Positions 9,421-53,989 of a DNA stretch of 64,000 bases are shown one piece after another. The notes beneath the pieces are model-generated. The model was given only the letters and a program-made list of their open reading frames with translations, did no database searches and was not told where the DNA came from. The stretch's first letter is position 1, and the number at the start of each line of letters is the position of its first letter. Both the position numbers and the translations under genes were made by a program. Origin of the DNA: Chryseolinea sp. (GTDB taxonomy: Bacteria > Bacteroidota > Bacteroidia > Cytophagales > Cyclobacteriaceae); the NCBI GenBank assembly GCA_025923195.1, contig JAICGJ010000007.1, positions 1 through 64,000 of the forward strand, written 5' to 3'.

Positions 9421-9422
9421 TT

Positions 9423-9524
9423 GGGCTATTGGGTACAGGGTATAGGGTATATGCGGTTTCCTTAAGCAACTTAAAACTTCAACTTCTCAGCGACCTTATA
9501 CCCTATACCGTACACCCTACACCT
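9423..9524. repeat. Paired inverted heptamer arrays, unit GGGTATA
   Basis: The left arm at 9423-9451 has one 8-base and three 7-base units of consensus GGGTAYA. The right arm at 9497-9524 has four units of TAYACCC in perfect 7-base register. The element fills the whole spacer between two convergent genes: the left arm starts two bases after the stop at 9420, and the right arm's last base is the first base of the opposing stop codon (9524-9526). The loop also contains a short run of AACTTMA-like units. It uses the same unit as the element at 21958. Confidence 0.85.
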
Positions 9525-11191
9525 TATCTCCGAACAAGCTTGCTTTTCCAGTACCCGTACATAAAGTAAATCACGAGGCCAAACCCCATCCAGCAAAAGA
9601 AAACGATCCAGCTATTGGTTGGAATTTCAATCATAAGGTAGAGACAGCATATCATCCCTAATACTGGGATCAACGACAGTTTTCTTGTGAACGAAACGAT
9701 TGTGATGACAGCGAATATCAGCACAAAAAGAACGAAAAGAATCTGCTCTTTCGTATTGTGAAAAAGATTTCCAAACGCGTCGGTCACACGCTCTCTAAAG
9801 CTGAAAAGAAAAATAAAAAACAAAGGCAGAACGATCCATTGACCATTGATATAGGGTAGATTAAACTTTTTGGTTGGTGATTTTTCCTGGCGCGGTAAGA
9901 GCAAGACTCCTCCACAGACTAACACGAAAGCAAACAAAGTCCCGATGCTCGTCAAATCCGTCATAATCGCACTTTCCACAAACAGGGATGGAATAGCTAC
10001 TATAATCCCGGTAACAATGGTTGAAAAACCTGGTGTTTGAAACCGCGGATGGATTTTTCCAAAACGTTTAGGCATCAGTCCATCTCGGCTCATGCTCATC
10101 CATATGCGGGGCTGACCGATCTGGAATACCAGTAGTACACTCGTTGCGGCGATGACTGCACTCACAGAAATAAAAAATCCCACCTTAGTCAAGTCAATTT
10201 TTTCAAAAACGTAGGCTAGGGGATCTGCCACATTATTGAATTCCGCATAACTTACCATGCCCGTAATAACCAACGTAACGACCACGTATATTACTGTACA
10301 AATAATTAACGAATAGATCATTCCACGCGGTAAATCCCGCTGAGGGTTTGCACACTCTTCTGCCGTAGTCGAAATTGCATCAAAACCAATGTACGCAAAG
10401 AACACGGCCGATACTCCCTTGAGTACTCCTGTAAATCCATTCGGCATAAAAGGACTCCAGTTATCAGCGTCGATATAAAATACTCCTATGATCACAATGA
10501 TCGCCAGAACCAACATCTTGAGCCCGACCATCATGTTGGCACTTGTTCTGCTTTCTTTGATTCCAATGTAAGCGAGAGCCGTAATGAATACAATGATTAC
10601 AAAAGCAGGCACATTGCAAATAAACCGATAACCTGCCACAACGGGGGCTATTGTCCATGTTAGGCCTTCCGTGGGTGCGCCGGCGGATTGAGCGGAAACA
10701 AATGCCTTATGGGCGGTCGTCGGATCCGTCGCGAGCCATTCAGGGAGATGTATGCCAACGCCTTCCAGTAAGTTCACGAAGTAACTACTCCACGAAATAG
10801 CGACCACAACGTTACCTATACTATATTCCAGGATGAGAGCCCATCCTATTACCCATGCTACAATTTCTCCGAATGTTACATAAGAATATGTATATGCGCT
10901 TCCGGCAACGGGAACTCGTGAAGCAAATTCCGCATAACAAAGCGCAGTGAACCCGCAGGTGACGGCAGTAATAATAAAGAGAAAAACAACGCCGGGACCA
11001 CCGTTATACGCAGCTTGGCCGATTGTCGAGAATATGCCAGCCCCAATAACGGCAGCGATCCCCATCGATGTCAAATCTCGCACCCCCAGAATTCTTTTGA
11101 GGCTTGTTCCTCCATGACCATCATTTAATCCCCGTTCGGCGTCTTCCAGAATATTTGAAAGAGGTTTCTTTCTCAATAGCGACTTGAACAT
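9524..11191 (-). CDS. APC-family cationic-type amino acid permease
   Basis: 555 residues with about 12-14 membrane segments. The family's first helix motif GAAVIGAGIFSTIG-like (MGIAAVIGAGIFSTIGQAA) is present near residue 45, and the helix 6 region carries VFFAYIGFDAISTTAEE, typical of cationic amino acid transporters. It lies in the inner membrane and exchanges or takes up amino acids with protons or by facilitated diffusion; the substrate is not readable. It is transcribed towards the convergent saccharopine-dehydrogenase-like gene, with only the repeat element between. It may serve amino-acid uptake for that enzyme (inference). Confidence 0.94.
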   Translation of the reverse strand: MFKSLLRKKPLSNILEDAERGLNDGHGGTSLKRILGVRDLTSMGIAAVIGAGIFSTIGQAAYNGGPGVVFLFIITAVTCGFTALCYAEFASRVPVAGSAYTYSYVTFGEIVAWVIGWALILEYSIGNVVVAISWSSYFVNLLEGVGIHLPEWLATDPTTAHKAFVSAQSAGAPTEGLTWTIAPVVAGYRFICNVPAFVIIVFITALAYIGIKESRTSANMMVGLKMLVLAIIVIIGVFYIDADNWSPFMPNGFTGVLKGVSAVFFAYIGFDAISTTAEECANPQRDLPRGMIYSLIICTVIYVVVTLVITGMVSYAEFNNVADPLAYVFEKIDLTKVGFFISVSAVIAATSVLLVFQIGQPRIWMSMSRDGLMPKRFGKIHPRFQTPGFSTIVTGIIVAIPSLFVESAIMTDLTSIGTLFAFVLVCGGVLLLPRQEKSPTKKFNLPYINGQWIVLPLFFIFLFSFRERVTDAFGNLFHNTKEQILFVLFVLIFAVITIVSFTRKLSLIPVLGMICCLYLMIEIPTNSWIVFFCWMGFGLVIYFMYGYWKSKLVRR

Positions 11192-21957: not shown

Positions 21958-22043
21958 GGGTATAAGGTATGGGGTGTAGGGTATAAGGTATAAGGTATAA
22001 GAGCTGCTGCGATCGGACCCCTATACCCTACACCCTATACCTT
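21958..22043. repeat. Paired inverted heptamer arrays, unit RGGTATA
   Basis: The left arm at 21958-21999 is six consecutive 7-base units of RGGTATA type in perfect register. The right arm at 22018-22043 has three TATACCC-type units and one extra CCC. The loop is only about 18 bases, so this is the tightest pair and could form a long hairpin. It sits in the divergent spacer between the ECF sigma gene and the GH51 gene. The unit is the same as at 9423, 12 kb away. Confidence 0.88.
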
Positions 22044-22122
22044 GCATCTAATATATAAGTGTACACATTACATTTTCAACCAATAAAGTCTAAATTAGAG
22101 CCCCAAACTTGATCCATATTCT

Positions 22123-41181: not shown

Positions 41182-41814
41182 ATGCAACTTTTTAGACTTC
41201 AAGCCAGTACTGCGCTCATTCTCCCAGTTATGATTGGTGCCACGCTTTTGGCCTCATGTTCTTCCTCTAAAAAAGCAACCGTGGGTGTACGCGATAATGC
41301 GGCCAAGCCTGAGCATAAGTCAAAAATGCCTGAAAAAAACGTAGTTGTCATTGATAGCGAGACAATGGAGACCGAAGGAGTGGAGGAGAAATCCAGGAAA
41401 AAAAGAAAGGCAGATCCCTCCGAAGAAAAGGCCGAAAAAGTGGTTTCTACTGCGCGTACGTTCATCGGGACCCCGTATAAATATGGGGGAACAACCCGCT
41501 CTGGTATGGATTGTTCTGCGCTACTAATCAATTCATTCAGCGCCGTTAAACTTAACCTGCCACGAAGTTCAGAAGCTCAAAGCAAGGTGGGCACCGAAAT
41601 TAAAATGCACGAACTCAAGCCGGGCGATCTGGTATTCTTTGCTACCGGCAATAAGAAGAAGCAAATAACGCATGTTGGGTTGGTCACCGACGTTAAGGCA
41701 AAAGACAATGTGAAATTTATCCATGCATCTAGTTCGTTGGGTGTGGTTGAAACCAATTTATTTGCCGAATATTATCAGAAGCGATTTCGCGGTGCCAGAA
41801 GGGTGATTGAGTAG
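41182..41814 (+). CDS. NlpC/P60 cell-wall hydrolase lipoprotein
   Basis: 210 residues from ATG 41182. The signal peptide ends in the lipobox LLASC, so it is anchored by a lipid, probably facing the periplasm. A Lys/Glu-rich linker (residues 30-85) precedes the NlpC/P60 domain: TARTFIGTPYKYGGTTRSGMDCSALL with catalytic Cys, and ITHVGLV with catalytic His. Such enzymes cut gamma-D-glutamyl-diaminopimelate or related bonds in peptidoglycan. The following spacer is filled by an inverted repeat array, and then the asparaginase gene begins. Confidence 0.95.
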   Translation: MQLFRLQASTALILPVMIGATLLASCSSSKKATVGVRDNAAKPEHKSKMPEKNVVVIDSETMETEGVEEKSRKKRKADPSEEKAEKVVSTARTFIGTPYKYGGTTRSGMDCSALLINSFSAVKLNLPRSSEAQSKVGTEIKMHELKPGDLVFFATGNKKKQITHVGLVTDVKAKDNVKFIHASSSLGVVETNLFAEYYQKRFRGARRVIE

Positions 41815-42000
41815 TGTTGAACTGTTGATGTTCGAAGTGTTGAAGTTTCTGTCTTCAAAGTGTTGAGCTTAGTTCTACGTGGAGAAAGCTTTTTCTCATT
41901 TAATTTAGCTCCCTGGTAAATCCAATAATATTTCTAAAATTAGCTACAAGTAAAGCGTATCGCACTTCAGCACTTCGAACTCCAACACTTCAACACTTCT
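41814..42000. repeat. Paired inverted octamer arrays, unit GTGTTGAA
   Basis: The left arm at 41814-41867 contains GTGTTGAA-like units (8 bases, some decayed). The right arm at 41963-42000 contains units of the reverse complement (TTCAACAC, seen as CACTTCAA). The arms are about 95 bases apart. The left arm begins on the last base of the NlpC/P60 stop codon, and the right arm ends three bases before the ATG of the next gene, so the element spans the whole spacer. Confidence 0.8.
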
Positions 42001-42003
42001 CCC

Positions 42004-42957
42004 ATGAAAACACGCAGGGAATTTTTAAAGCTTGCAACCCTCGGTGCAATTGTACCAACAGAAATTGTTGCAGCTGCCAGGGTAGTAACTAAGCCAGTCG
42101 TTTTGTCGACCTGGAATTTTGGTTTGCAGGCAAATGCGGAGGCGTGGAAGATTTTGTCAAAGGAAGGGAGGGCTCTGGACGCAGTTGAAGCAGGTGCAAA
42201 GGTCCCGGAGCGGGATGCATCGGAAACCTCCGTTGGCCTTGGCGGACTTCCTGACCGAGATGGTCACGTTACCCTCGATGCGTGCATCATGGATGAAAAT
42301 GGTCGCTGTGGATCAGTCGCGTGCCTTGAACATATTGTGCATGCTATTTCCGTTGCGCGCCTGGTCATGGAGAAGACGCCTCATGTTATGTTAGTGGGTG
42401 AGGGAGCATTACAATTTGCCCTGGCAAATGGATTCAAGAAACAAAATCTATTGACAAAGGCATCGGAAAAAGCGTGGAAAGAATGGGCCAAAAACTCAGA
42501 ATACAAACCGATTATCAACGTAGAAAATCATGATACTATCGGTATAATTGCATTGGACACCCAAGGTAATTTATCGGGTGCTTGCACCACCAGCGGACTT
42601 GCTTATAAAATGCGCGGCCGCGTCGGCGACTCACCGATTATCGGAGCGGGATTATATGTAGACAATGAAATCGGGGCGGCGACAGCAACCGGCGTCGGTG
42701 AGGAGGTCATCAGGATCGTGGGCTGTCATCTCGTAGTTGAGCTAATGCGGCAAGGAAATTCGCCGGAGCAAGCTTGCAAGCTGGCGGTCGAAAGGATAGT
42801 GAAAAAAAATCCGGAAAAGGCTAGGGAAGTACAGGTCGGTTTTTTGGCCCTCAACAAGAATGGTGAATCCGGGGCCTATTGTTTGCAAAAAGGGTTTAAC
42901 TATGCAAAGCACGACAGCACGGGGAACGTGCTAATTGATTCAAAATACATGATATGA
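42004..42957 (+). CDS. Asparaginase/aspartylglucosaminidase, Ntn-hydrolase
   Basis: 317 residues. The twin-arginine-like start MKTRREFLKLATLGAIVP suggests export by Tat. The Ntn autocleavage site is NHDTIG: cleavage before the Thr near residue 180 frees the nucleophile. The family cleaves GlcNAc-Asn bonds of glycoproteins or L-asparagine/isoaspartyl dipeptides; the GHVTLDACIM and MRGRVGDSPIIGAGLYVDNE segments fit aspartylglucosaminidase. It is followed by cutC after a repeat element, probably co-transcribed. Whether it acts on glycans or on peptides is unclear. Confidence 0.94.
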   Translation: MKTRREFLKLATLGAIVPTEIVAAARVVTKPVVLSTWNFGLQANAEAWKILSKEGRALDAVEAGAKVPERDASETSVGLGGLPDRDGHVTLDACIMDENGRCGSVACLEHIVHAISVARLVMEKTPHVMLVGEGALQFALANGFKKQNLLTKASEKAWKEWAKNSEYKPIINVENHDTIGIIALDTQGNLSGACTTSGLAYKMRGRVGDSPIIGAGLYVDNEIGAATATGVGEEVIRIVGCHLVVELMRQGNSPEQACKLAVERIVKKNPEKAREVQVGFLALNKNGESGAYCLQKGFNYAKHDSTGNVLIDSKYMI

Positions 42958-43083
42958 ACTGACAGCTAACAGCCGACAGCTGTGCCACTGGTTGTGCAAT
43001 AATCTAAGGTCTGTAATTTGGTACTTTCAAAATATCATCGCATGTTCGGCCAGTTAGCTGTCTGCTGTTAGCTGTACACTGTA
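42958..43083. repeat. Paired inverted heptamer arrays, unit GACAGCT
   Basis: The left arm at 42958-42981 has three 7-base units, RACAGCY, right after the stop codon. The right arm at 43050-43083 has four AGCTGTY-like units in register (with a shorter partner at 43050-43055). It ends 8 bases before the cutC ATG at 43092. The spacer between the arms is 68 bases. The unit is the same as the solo arm at 11919. Confidence 0.85.
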
Positions 43084-43091
43084 AACTCTGT

Positions 43092-51771: not shown

Positions 51772-53310
51772 CTACCCTGCCCAACCATCCCTGTCCAGGC
51801 TTCTGTACTGAATGGCCTCTGCCAGATGTTCTGTTTTTATGTCGGCAGATCCGGCCAAATCGGCGATCGTGCGTGAGACTTTAAGGATCCTGTCGTAGGC
51901 GCGGGCGGAAAGTCCCAGCCTTTCCATTGCTGTTTTCAATAGACTTTTTCCTGCCTCATTGACGCCACAGATTTCCTTCACTTGATTTGATGCCATCATA
52001 GCATTGCAATAAACGGATTCCTGGTGCTTGAATCGGTCAGCTTGAATTTGGCGGGCATGCACTACGCGTTCACGAATTTCCTGACTGTTTTCCGATCTTC
52101 TGTTCGCCGTCATCTCGTCAAAGCTTACGGGGACGACTTCAACGTGCAAGTCGATGCGGTCAAGCAACGGTCCGCTTATGCGGCTGAGGTAACGCTGAAC
52201 AACTCCGGGGCCACAGACACACTCTTTTTCGGGATGGTTATAATAACCACAAGGGCATGGATTCATACTGGCTATGAGCATAAAATTAGCGGGATATTCC
52301 AGCGATACCTTGGCCCTTGAAATGGTTACGCGCCGTTCCTCCATTGGCTGACGCATCACCTCAAGCACAGTGCGTTTAAATTCCGGTAGCTCATCGAGGA
52401 AGAGGACTCCGTTGTTTGCCAATGAAATCTCTCCAGGCTGTGGGTTTCCACCTCCACCCACCAGGGCTACATCTGAAATTGTATGATGCGGAGCGCGAAA
52501 TGGCCTCGTTGTCATTAATGAAGCGTTGCGCTGTATCCTTCCTGCTACCGAATGAATCTTGGTGGTCTCCAGAGCTTCATTTAACGTCAACGGCGGCAGT
52601 ATGGTGGGAAGTCTCTTCGCCAACATTGTTTTTCCCGCACCAGGTGGACCTATCATGATCACGTTATGTCCTCCAGCAGCTGCAATTTCGAGGGCGCGTT
52701 TAATGTTTTCCTGGCCCTGAACATCCTTGAAATCCGTGTCATAATGATTCAATTTCGTTGCAAAAACTTCATGTGCATCTACGTGGATTGAGTCAATGGT
52801 TGTATTGCCCTCCAAGAAACTCACAGCTTGTCGAAGGGAACTTACAGGATACACTTGTAAGCCGTCGACAATGGCGGCTTCCTTCGCGTTGTCGGCCGGC
52901 AGAATAAAACCTTTGAAGTTTTCGCGCTTCGCCTGGATGGCTATGGGTAATACACCTTTAATAGGACGCAACGTTCCATCTAGAGTTAATTCACCCATGA
53001 TGATAAAGTCCTCCAGCTTATCGGTAGCGATTTGTGAGGATGCTTTTAGTATACAAAGGGCAATTCCTAAGTCATACGCAGAGCCTTCCTTTCGTATATC
53101 GGCCGGTGCAAGATTAACGACAGTCTTATTGCGAGGCATGAAAAAATCGCCGCTCTTGATAGCGGATTCAACCCGGTGCTGACTTTCCTTGACGGCGCTG
53201 TCGGGCAATCCGCTCATATAGAACCTGATTCCCTGCCCGACATTCACTTCCACCATGATGGTACGCGCGTCAACACCATGGACTGCTCCTCCATAGGTTT
53301 TAGCTACCAT
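51772..53310 (-). CDS. ComM/YifB-like Mg-chelatase AAA+ ATPase
   Basis: 512 residues. The N-terminal ribosomal-S5/Lon-protease-like domain (VGQGIRFYMSGLPDSAVKE) runs to about 185, followed by the AAA+ module: Walker A GPPGAGKTMLAKRLP, Walker B GVLFLDELPEF, then a zinc-type cluster (NPCPCGYYNHPEKECVCGP), and sensor segments GLSARAYDRILKVSRTIADLA. ComM is a helicase that supports branch migration of incoming DNA during transformation. It may thus work with the ComEA-type protein elsewhere in the window. The next gene, at 53327, is 16 bases upstream. Confidence 0.96.
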   Translation of the reverse strand: MVAKTYGGAVHGVDARTIMVEVNVGQGIRFYMSGLPDSAVKESQHRVESAIKSGDFFMPRNKTVVNLAPADIRKEGSAYDLGIALCILKASSQIATDKLEDFIIMGELTLDGTLRPIKGVLPIAIQAKRENFKGFILPADNAKEAAIVDGLQVYPVSSLRQAVSFLEGNTTIDSIHVDAHEVFATKLNHYDTDFKDVQGQENIKRALEIAAAGGHNVIMIGPPGAGKTMLAKRLPTILPPLTLNEALETTKIHSVAGRIQRNASLMTTRPFRAPHHTISDVALVGGGGNPQPGEISLANNGVLFLDELPEFKRTVLEVMRQPMEERRVTISRAKVSLEYPANFMLIASMNPCPCGYYNHPEKECVCGPGVVQRYLSRISGPLLDRIDLHVEVVPVSFDEMTANRRSENSQEIRERVVHARQIQADRFKHQESVYCNAMMASNQVKEICGVNEAGKSLLKTAMERLGLSARAYDRILKVSRTIADLAGSADIKTEHLAEAIQYRSLDRDGWAG

Positions 53311-53326: not shown

Positions 53327-53659
53327 CTAGGGATTCTTCGAAGAAGGCGTCTGTTGCGTCGGCAGTTGGGATTCTGACTTTGCTTGTTCTTGAAGATCGA
53401 AAAGTTTTGCCTTTAACGTGTTGAGCTCGTGCGTGAGTGCACCTTTTTCTTGTTGTGATTCGCGAGAGATAAACCATGACCAGATAACGTCTATTATTAC
53501 TAAAATTAAACCTAACAGTGTTCCATATTTGAACCAGGGAACGTATTGAACCATACTAAATAACATTTGCGTATTATTTTCAAGTATCAGGGTGAAGATG
53601 AATGCCCCAAGACTGAATGCAGTCATAATTGCATAGAAAATAAGTCTGTTTTTTGTCAT
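53327..53659 (-). CDS. Small membrane protein with coiled coil
   Basis: 110 residues. Two hydrophobic segments lie at about 7-25 and 43-63 (LILVIIDVIWSWFI), followed by a coiled-coil-like region (residues 68-95, HELNTLKAKLFDLQEQ) and a Ser/Thr/Gln-rich tail. I do not recognise the family. It lies 16 bases before the comM-like gene on the same strand and is probably co-transcribed with it. No function can be assigned. Confidence 0.65.
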   Translation of the reverse strand: MTKNRLIFYAIMTAFSLGAFIFTLILENNTQMLFSMVQYVPWFKYGTLLGLILVIIDVIWSWFISRESQQEKGALTHELNTLKAKLFDLQEQAKSESQLPTQQTPSSKNP

Positions 53660-53989
53660 GCGTAGCGGGTTCGTAATCGATTAGTTTAAAGGTAGCGGAT
53701 TTTTAATTAATTGTTGATCGTTATCGGTTATTAGTTATCCGTTATCCGTTATCCGTTATTCGTTAACCGTTAATAGTTATTAGTTAATAGTTATTAGTTA
53801 TTCCGTAATCCGTAGGGTGTGCTGATGATGAAAGTTAACTGCAAATCTCAAACCGATAATAAAAAAACAACCGACATTTGGATTACGTATATGTCAAAAA
53901 TCGAGCGCACACGCCAAGCCCACACCCACGAATAACGAATAACGAATAACGAATAACTAATAACGTTTAACGAATAACTGACACACAAC
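53660..53989. other. Spacer filled by a repeat element
   Basis: This 330-base gap separates the MsbA-like gene from the small membrane protein gene, both on the minus strand. It is taken up mainly by the paired heptamer arrays at 53719-53977. The unique part between the arms, about 53817-53928, has no open frame or hairpin that I can name. Confidence 0.6.
53719..53977. repeat. Paired inverted heptamer arrays, unit NGTTATY (largest)
   Basis: The left arm at 53719-53816 has 14 units in perfect 7-base register: twelve of the form NGTTAWN and two of the form CCGTANN. The right arm at 53929-53977 has seven units, mostly CGAATAA, in perfect register. The intervening segment is 112 bases. This is the longest and most regular of the elements, which makes chance unlikely. 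The right arm ends 12 bases before the stop of the MsbA-like gene at 53990. Confidence 0.9.

Follow-up and report, generated by a model that had tools for sequence, protein, structure and literature searches.

The subject of this report is an array of 7-base repeat units (heptads) in the genome of Chryseolinea sp. (Bacteroidota; Cytophagales; Cyclobacteriaceae), in a window of 64,000 nucleotides, the whole stretch of DNA that was analysed (contig JAICGJ010000007.1, positions 1 to 64,000, assembly GCA_025923195.1). The array lies in the intergenic gap between a gene for an ABC transporter with membrane and ATPase domains (PF00664, PF00005; 53990-55813, minus strand) and a small gene (53327-53659, minus strand) that encodes a 110-aa protein without a Pfam match and is kept across the genus. 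Beyond the small gene lies that of a YifB/ComM-type Mg-chelatase-like ATPase (51772-53310, minus strand), which served as the anchor for finding the orthologous locus. The gap holds two arrays of heptads. The left arm (53719-53816, plus strand) comprises 14 heptads whose GTTAT.. pattern points into the spacer, 12 of them good units (53719-53802) and two decayed (53803-53816). Read in steps of 7, the first seven are CGTTATC, GGTTATT, AGTTATC, CGTTATC, CGTTATC, CGTTATT and CGTTAAC, and the last seven CGTTAAT, AGTTATT, AGTTAAT, AGTTATT, AGTTATT, CCGTAAT and CCGTAGG. The right arm (53929-53977, minus strand) has seven in-register heptads of the GTTATTC type, which on the forward strand read CGAATAA four times, then CTAATAA, CGTTTAA and CGAATAA; its outer edge and the ABC transporter stop codon are 11 bases apart. 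Between the arms lie 112 bases of unique sequence (53817-53928), and each arm carries a cap at its inner edge: GGGTGTG on the left (53815-53821, plus strand) and CACACCC, which is GGGTGTG on the minus strand, on the right (53921-53927). A second part of the right inner cap, TCGAGCGC (53901-53908, minus strand), is of a CGCTCGA type common to other elements.

An initial annotation of this locus had described 14 units at a 7-base step from 53719 together with the seven inverted units at 53929-53977, and this description is borne out by our reading of the units, by Tandem Repeats Finder (TRF), which calls both arms with period 7, and by shuffling. The best 77-base stretch has a lag-7 identity of 64/77; 1000 dinucleotide-preserving shuffles of the surrounding 500 bases averaged 28 and did not exceed 38 of 77. 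The consensus proposed there, NGTTAWN, fits 12 of the 14 left-arm units and fails for the last two, which are the decayed ones. When periods of 3 to 24 were scanned across the whole window, values of at least 29/42 were reached only by 7, 14 and 21. The signal sits at 7 and its multiples, with none at 10-11, and helical phasing was rejected.

The array is one of many. Our survey of the organism's own genome covered 1003 kb of 6.57 Mb, made up of 520 kb of unselected sequence and 483 kb from BLAST-matched contigs or from the window; counts from the unselected part err on the low side, because BLAST-matched contigs had been assigned to the selected group. The assembly consists of 379 contigs, and genes were called by open-frame heuristics, not taken from annotation. 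A BLAST search of the own genome with the window element returned 104 matches, and a lag-7 scan of the sample found 114 heptad arrays, 84 of which belong to the GTTATCC/GTTAATA (GTTA) family. The array in the window was said to be the largest, which is true of the window and not of the genome, where larger arrays exist (for example L128:13224-13363). Of the 52 GTTA-family groups, 24 consist of one array, which in some cases lies at a contig end. Several unrelated families of units, all of period 7, coexist in this genome, and the preference for that period is marked: at a stricter threshold the unselected part yielded 13 arrays of period 7, three of period 8, one of period 6 and none of periods 4, 5 or 9-12. 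Likewise, GTTAT at a spacing of 7 has 112 matches in the own genome, and at spacings of 6 or 8 it has none. In a control across 18 genomes, the forward period-8 pattern occurred in two and the period-6 pattern in none, so that a period of 7 is typical and not universal. Genomes G081 and G264 have GTTAT arrays of period 8 (GTTATTGG) alongside those of period 7.

The arms share a common anatomy. Our unit parser, which seeks GT-initial units and favours steps of 7, passed 74 of 80 arms (those with at least four units) and returned 628 units, 4 to 18 per arm. The spectrum is heterogeneous and consists mainly of GTTATCC, GTTAATA, GTTATTA and GTTATTC, with GTTATCA accounting for 24 of the 628. Neighbouring GTTA arrays no more than 600 bases apart are convergent in 28 of 31 cases. 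The unit types are also ordered: from the outside inwards, GTTATCC-type units precede GTTAATA/GTTATTA-type units in 46 of the 55 arms that contain both. The GGGTGTG cap stands at the inner edge of 24 of the 80 arms and at none of the outer edges, and in many arms it is followed inwards by CGCTCGA. The spacers are mostly unique and unrelated to one another, with a few homologous exceptions (L113 and L183 are 88% identical over 121 bases), and arrays of other heptad families lie inside some of them.

Three further observations concern the spacers. An inner sequence (CTCGATTACAACTCGAATGG .. AATCGGGATCGAGCG) is common to those at L113:9922-10043, L183:7955-8086 and L179:15191-15345, as if a core element had once travelled with the arms. 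A near-verbatim dispersed sequence around TTCGATGTTCCTTGTTCGTTATTC, itself heptad-like (TTCNNNN), recurs in the spacers of L188, L194 and L172. The spacer at L128:4600-4680 is a run of six-base units (CACCCT/CACTCT), a second period within one element.

The position of the arrays relative to genes is equally constrained. Of the 114 arrays, 110 fall outside open reading frames (ORFs) of at least 100 aa, although such ORFs cover 86% of the sample. For gene context, 15 of the 80 arms had no called gene and 5 of the 28 pairs lay too close to a contig end. Arms behind stop codons and arms before start codons are about equally frequent (33 and 32). On the stop-codon side the array begins within 22 bases of the gene in 29 of 33 arms; on the ATG side it comes within 20 bases in 17 of 32, with ATAAC units directly before the start codon. 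Because the outer edges abut genes, the GTTAT strand points outwards from the gene, at its 5' end as at its 3' end. Other genomes of the order, in which arrays are often single, show the same polarity: relative to the GTTAT strand, 11 of 19 loci have a gene no more than 10 bases away in the 5' direction, against 1 of 17 in the 3' direction. Of the 23 convergent pairs with known context, one lies between divergent genes, against 25% of gaps (p 0.03); when single arrays are added, the figure is 5 of 38 (p 0.13).

The arrays are specific to this lineage and nearly missing from its sister species. The anchor gene yifB is 91% identical to that of Chryseolinea sp. H1M3-3 (G004, the sister genome), which points to a common genus, and the succession of ABC transporter, small gene and yifB persists within that genus (synteny was checked in a smaller set). 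None of five same-genus genomes (G001-G005) has an array at the orthologous locus, and the sister has none at any of the five elements of the window. Of 80 yifB loci gathered, 37 were scanned, and these yielded a single array, at a different place (L041). Genome-wide, four consecutive GTTANNN units match 353 times in the own genome and 0, 0, 3, 0 and 0 times in G001 to G005. The family patterns are patchy in two wider, overlapping samples: 45 of 291 genomes from the order have them, as do 32 of 247 from the phylum. The sister does hold a decayed array at its counterpart of L173, where the register is broken by one base and the heptad score of 49 is the highest among 444 intergenic regions (the next is 37). 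The initial annotation had held that orthologous loci without periodicity would point to a single chance event. The five relatives do lack a periodic array here, yet with scores of such arrays in the own genome that conclusion does not follow.

How the arrays change is best seen where one locus was assembled twice. The overlapping contigs C208 and C216 represent the same locus and differ by one 35-base gap, equal to five units, inside the right arm, with three substitutions besides in an alignment of 241 columns. Unit number therefore differs between near-identical copies, as it does in phase-variable repeats; the copies lie at contig ends, where assembly error is possible. In addition, adjacent units are identical at a frequency of 0.35, against a mean of 0.25 and a maximum of 0.29 in 500 within-arm shuffles. 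These two results lend support to the suggestion that the period stems from slippage or copying, in whole 7-base units. The perfect 7-base register attributed to the window array holds there; the 74 parsed arms depart from it in 20 of 554 spacings, and 20 arms are affected. It had also been argued that selection or ongoing conversion must keep the period while the sequence varies. Gain and loss of whole units together with point mutation suffices, and breaks of register occur in those 20 of 74 arms; whole units would be gained or lost while substitutions accumulate, and the register would be kept passively as the sequence drifts. Selection for the period is not required by the present data. 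Nor was any ongoing conversion seen between arms: in the 23 of 28 pairs that entered the comparison, the two arms of a pair resemble each other in unit content no more than arms of different pairs do (permutation p 0.38), and their lengths are uncorrelated (Spearman -0.11), on which grounds mirror copying between the arms was rejected.

Other contig ends also overlap. C93 and C266 are 97.7% identical over 256 bases (L179:15149-15591, L189:1-355) with about 9 and 14 units, respectively, and the spacer edge is joined to the arm inverted; this difference may be an assembly effect. Further contig-end overlaps of 97-99% identity pair L178:8993-9307 with L180:1-315 and L189:6532-6908 with L203:1-378, which suggests two haplotypes in the assembly.

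Taken together, these findings lead us to regard the array in the window as probably one member of a large, lineage-specific set of intergenic heptad arrays that grow and shrink by whole units. What speaks for this is the observed anatomy and orientation rule, the absence of the array from the locus in five same-genus genomes and the whole-unit difference between contigs. The arrays occupy the edges of intergenic gaps, starting a few bases past a stop or start codon with GTTAT.. pointing away from the gene, and where both edges of a gap carry an array a convergent (inverted) pair around a spacer results. They would lengthen, shorten and be rewritten by whole 7-base units, whether by unequal exchange or by replication slippage, as point mutations build up and the sequence drifts. 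Coding sequence would set the outer bound, because longer arrays would break genes. The occurrence at many sites of composite arms (GTTATCC, GTTAATA/GTTATTA, GGGTGTG, CGCTCGA) further implies that arm sequences must have been copied between sites as well. A dedicated function of the window copy is not indicated; the copy may have side effects on translation or on the ends of transcripts.

Several points weigh against this interpretation. Slippage as the process is inferred, not observed, and by itself it leaves the recurring composite arm, the convergence and the unit length of 7 unexplained. The 35-base difference between C208 and C216 could in part be an assembly error or a recent duplication. 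At the window locus, moreover, the sister holds only GTTATCCGTTA, with a heptad score of 24 that is not above chance (45 of 444 intergenic regions reach it; shuffle p 0.12). We make no claim for GTTATCCGTTA as the seed of the window array: the corresponding 11-base pattern occurs 29 times in the sister and its reversed control 37 times.

Could the recurring composite arm be the mark of a mobile element? A fold-back element resembling a miniature inverted-repeat transposable element (MITE), built of heptad arms and GGGTGTG/CGCTCGA caps, may have been spread by a transposase acting in trans, its arms being varied by slippage only later. The fixed convergent orientation (28 of 31) with inverted terminal arms, the common inner caps and ordered unit types, the few homologous spacers such as L113/L183 and the species-specific abundance would all follow from such an origin. 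We nonetheless consider it unlikely, as most spacers are mutually unrelated and the elements tend to fill the whole gap and not to sit inside leftover intergenic DNA; furthermore, nine loci compared by eye with the sister allowed no target-site duplication to be defined, being too diverged, at about 70-77% identity, for the ends to be placed. A related precedent is offered by REP (repetitive extragenic palindromic) sequences and BIMEs (bacterial interspersed mosaic elements), inverted intergenic palindromes near gene ends that are associated with the RAYT (REP-associated tyrosine) transposase. Unlike these, none of the four Y1_Tnp genes (PF01797) of the own genome adjoins a heptad array, and genes of this family are present in all five same-genus genomes; a RAYT/REP origin is accordingly rejected, in a test that covered this one transposase family. 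About 400 bases beside one Y1_Tnp gene (L265) seem to be repeated near-verbatim in tandem.

The convergent arms might instead be selected as an RNA or DNA hairpin that serves as a terminator, a stabiliser of mRNA or an insulator at gene ends. The window element would fold strongly as RNA (z -6.6 for the minus strand, -5.3 for the plus strand) and as DNA (z -4.0), and the tight placement of arms behind stop codons speaks for such a role, as does the single pair out of 23 between divergent genes (5 of 38, p 0.13, once single arrays are counted). Arm length and unit content are uncorrelated within pairs, which argues against a selected hairpin; the stem is not followed by a T-run, a terminator scan finds none in the element, and no Rfam family matches at gathering score, with three matches below that threshold. 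The sister does without the element, and nearly half of the GTTA-family groups, the 24 of 52 mentioned above, are single. We therefore think this explanation quite improbable. The element at L207:11884-12050 follows a stop codon directly, at a site where the sister, judged by eye, has a terminator-like GC hairpin with a T-run; this case counts in the hairpin's favour.

A regulator acting on DNA or RNA with a 7-base step, by analogy with what has been proposed for the TAACTGA-preceded genes of Beggiatoaceae, might account for GTTA being the least variable part of the unit and for the ATAAC units directly before start codons in 17 of the 32 arms with a nearby ATG, and a role in translation is what the published proposal names (PMC4679880). 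The constancy of GTTA is inflated by the parsing of units, the array is missing at the same genes elsewhere in the genus, several unrelated unit families share the period within one genome, and arms at stop codons are as frequent as those at start codons; such a regulator would thus be a very unlikely cause. A phase-variable switch, in which the spacer is turned round by recombination between the oppositely oriented arms or the number of units sets how strongly a neighbour is expressed, is scarcely credible, since what might suggest it, the C93/C266 pair with about 9 and 14 units and an inverted spacer edge, is a single case at contig ends where assembly error is possible, there is no promoter evidence in the window spacer, and the neighbours in the window, ABC transporter and YifB, are ordinary genes.

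Heptad arrays of a comparable kind have been described in other bacteria. Prokaryotic long simple sequence repeats with a 7-base unit were reportedly surveyed by Mrazek et al. in 2007 (as cited in PMC4679880 and PMC4692102). Heptamer arrays of this class are intergenic, like ours, and slippage tied to a 7-base polymerase contact has been proposed for them; the accounts consulted deal with a class of repeats and make no statement on this lineage or on the anatomy of arms. Heptamers have been reported to outnumber all other tandem repeats between the genes of prokaryotes, and nothing hinted at what they do (PMC6344855). The closest published parallels are the GGGAATC repeats of Xanthomonas and the GGGGA(T/C)T repeats of Nostoc (Rehm et al. 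2015, PMC4692102). The Xanthomonas repeats are mainly intergenic and dispersed, with 70 and 75 convergent pairs in two species; most lie within 50 bases of ORFs, following the ORF if on its coding strand and preceding it if on the non-coding one; those between divergent genes are few, and length and sequence vary among species (PMC4692102). One GGGAATC locus serves as a variable-number tandem repeat (VNTR) marker in X. vasicola (PMC6459536). The Chryseolinea arrays resemble these published sets in being heterogeneous tandem heptamers that are intergenic, dispersed and close to ORFs and, as in Xanthomonas, arranged in convergent pairs. They differ in that GTTATCC and GTTAATA have no G-tracts and do not belong to the G-rich subtype, so that a quadruplex of the Xanthomonas/Nostoc type is not expected, and, compared with Xanthomonas as described there, in their arms, which are composites of two ordered types of unit with caps.

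A second parallel, described by MacGregor 2015 (PMC4679880), is the TAACTGA direct repeat of Beggiatoaceae, Cyanobacteria and some Bacteroidetes. These arrays are mostly directly upstream of start codons and in the same orientation, their distribution across species is patchy, and insertions and deletions between two Cyanothece strains are mostly in 7-base steps (PMC4679880). TAACTGA is a rotation of TGATAAC, one substitution away from GGATAAC, and hence a close relative of the Chryseolinea unit without being the same; its equivalent on the opposite strand, GTTATCA, makes up the 24 of 628 units noted above. As with TAACTGA, Chryseolinea arrays occur before start codons in forward orientation (the 17 of 32 arms within 20 bases of an ATG). 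Unlike the TAACTGA repeats as reported, the Chryseolinea units are mixed (mostly GTTATCC, GTTAATA and GTTATTA) and stand in convergent pairs. We found no report in the open literature of GTTATCC-type convergent pairs in Cytophagales. The Chryseolinea set thus belongs to a known and unexplained kind of heptamer repeat, with a unit and a host that are apparently new, at least to us.

It is tempting to speculate further that unrelated heptads in different phyla (GGGAATC in Xanthomonas, TAACTGA in Beggiatoaceae, GTTATCC and others in Chryseolinea) obey one edge rule, by which the array begins shortly past the codon boundary and a fixed strand is directed outwards at either end of the gene, and that they do so because a common process with a 7-base step acts at gene edges. 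We rate this conjecture as rather unlikely; if true, an edge rule common to unrelated units would point to one generating process and not to separate slippage accidents. The heavy expansion in one genome beside nearly array-free sisters, together with hints of variation in unit number within one assembly, makes the origin of the arrays, their step of 7 and their effects testable within one genus.

The window contains four further elements, each a convergent inverted pair of other heptads, the first and last of which were judged by eye. The second element of the window, of the GGTAATC type, spans 1838-2046, with arms at 1838-1866 and about 2007-2046; the third (GGTATAG type, 9422-9527) has arms at 9422-9454 and 9492-9527, and the fourth (GGTATAA type, 21959-22046) at 21959-22007 and 22019-22046. 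The fifth, a degenerate element of the GCTGACA type (42956-43084), has arms at about 42956-42984 and 43051-43084. A set of 8-base repeats at 41813-41999, in a stretch that aligns unbroken to the sister genome, was set aside. Upstream of the small gene beside the main array, TACCTTTA (53687-53694, minus strand) is conserved across the genus, at a position that presumably matches that of the -7 promoter element of Bacteroidota.
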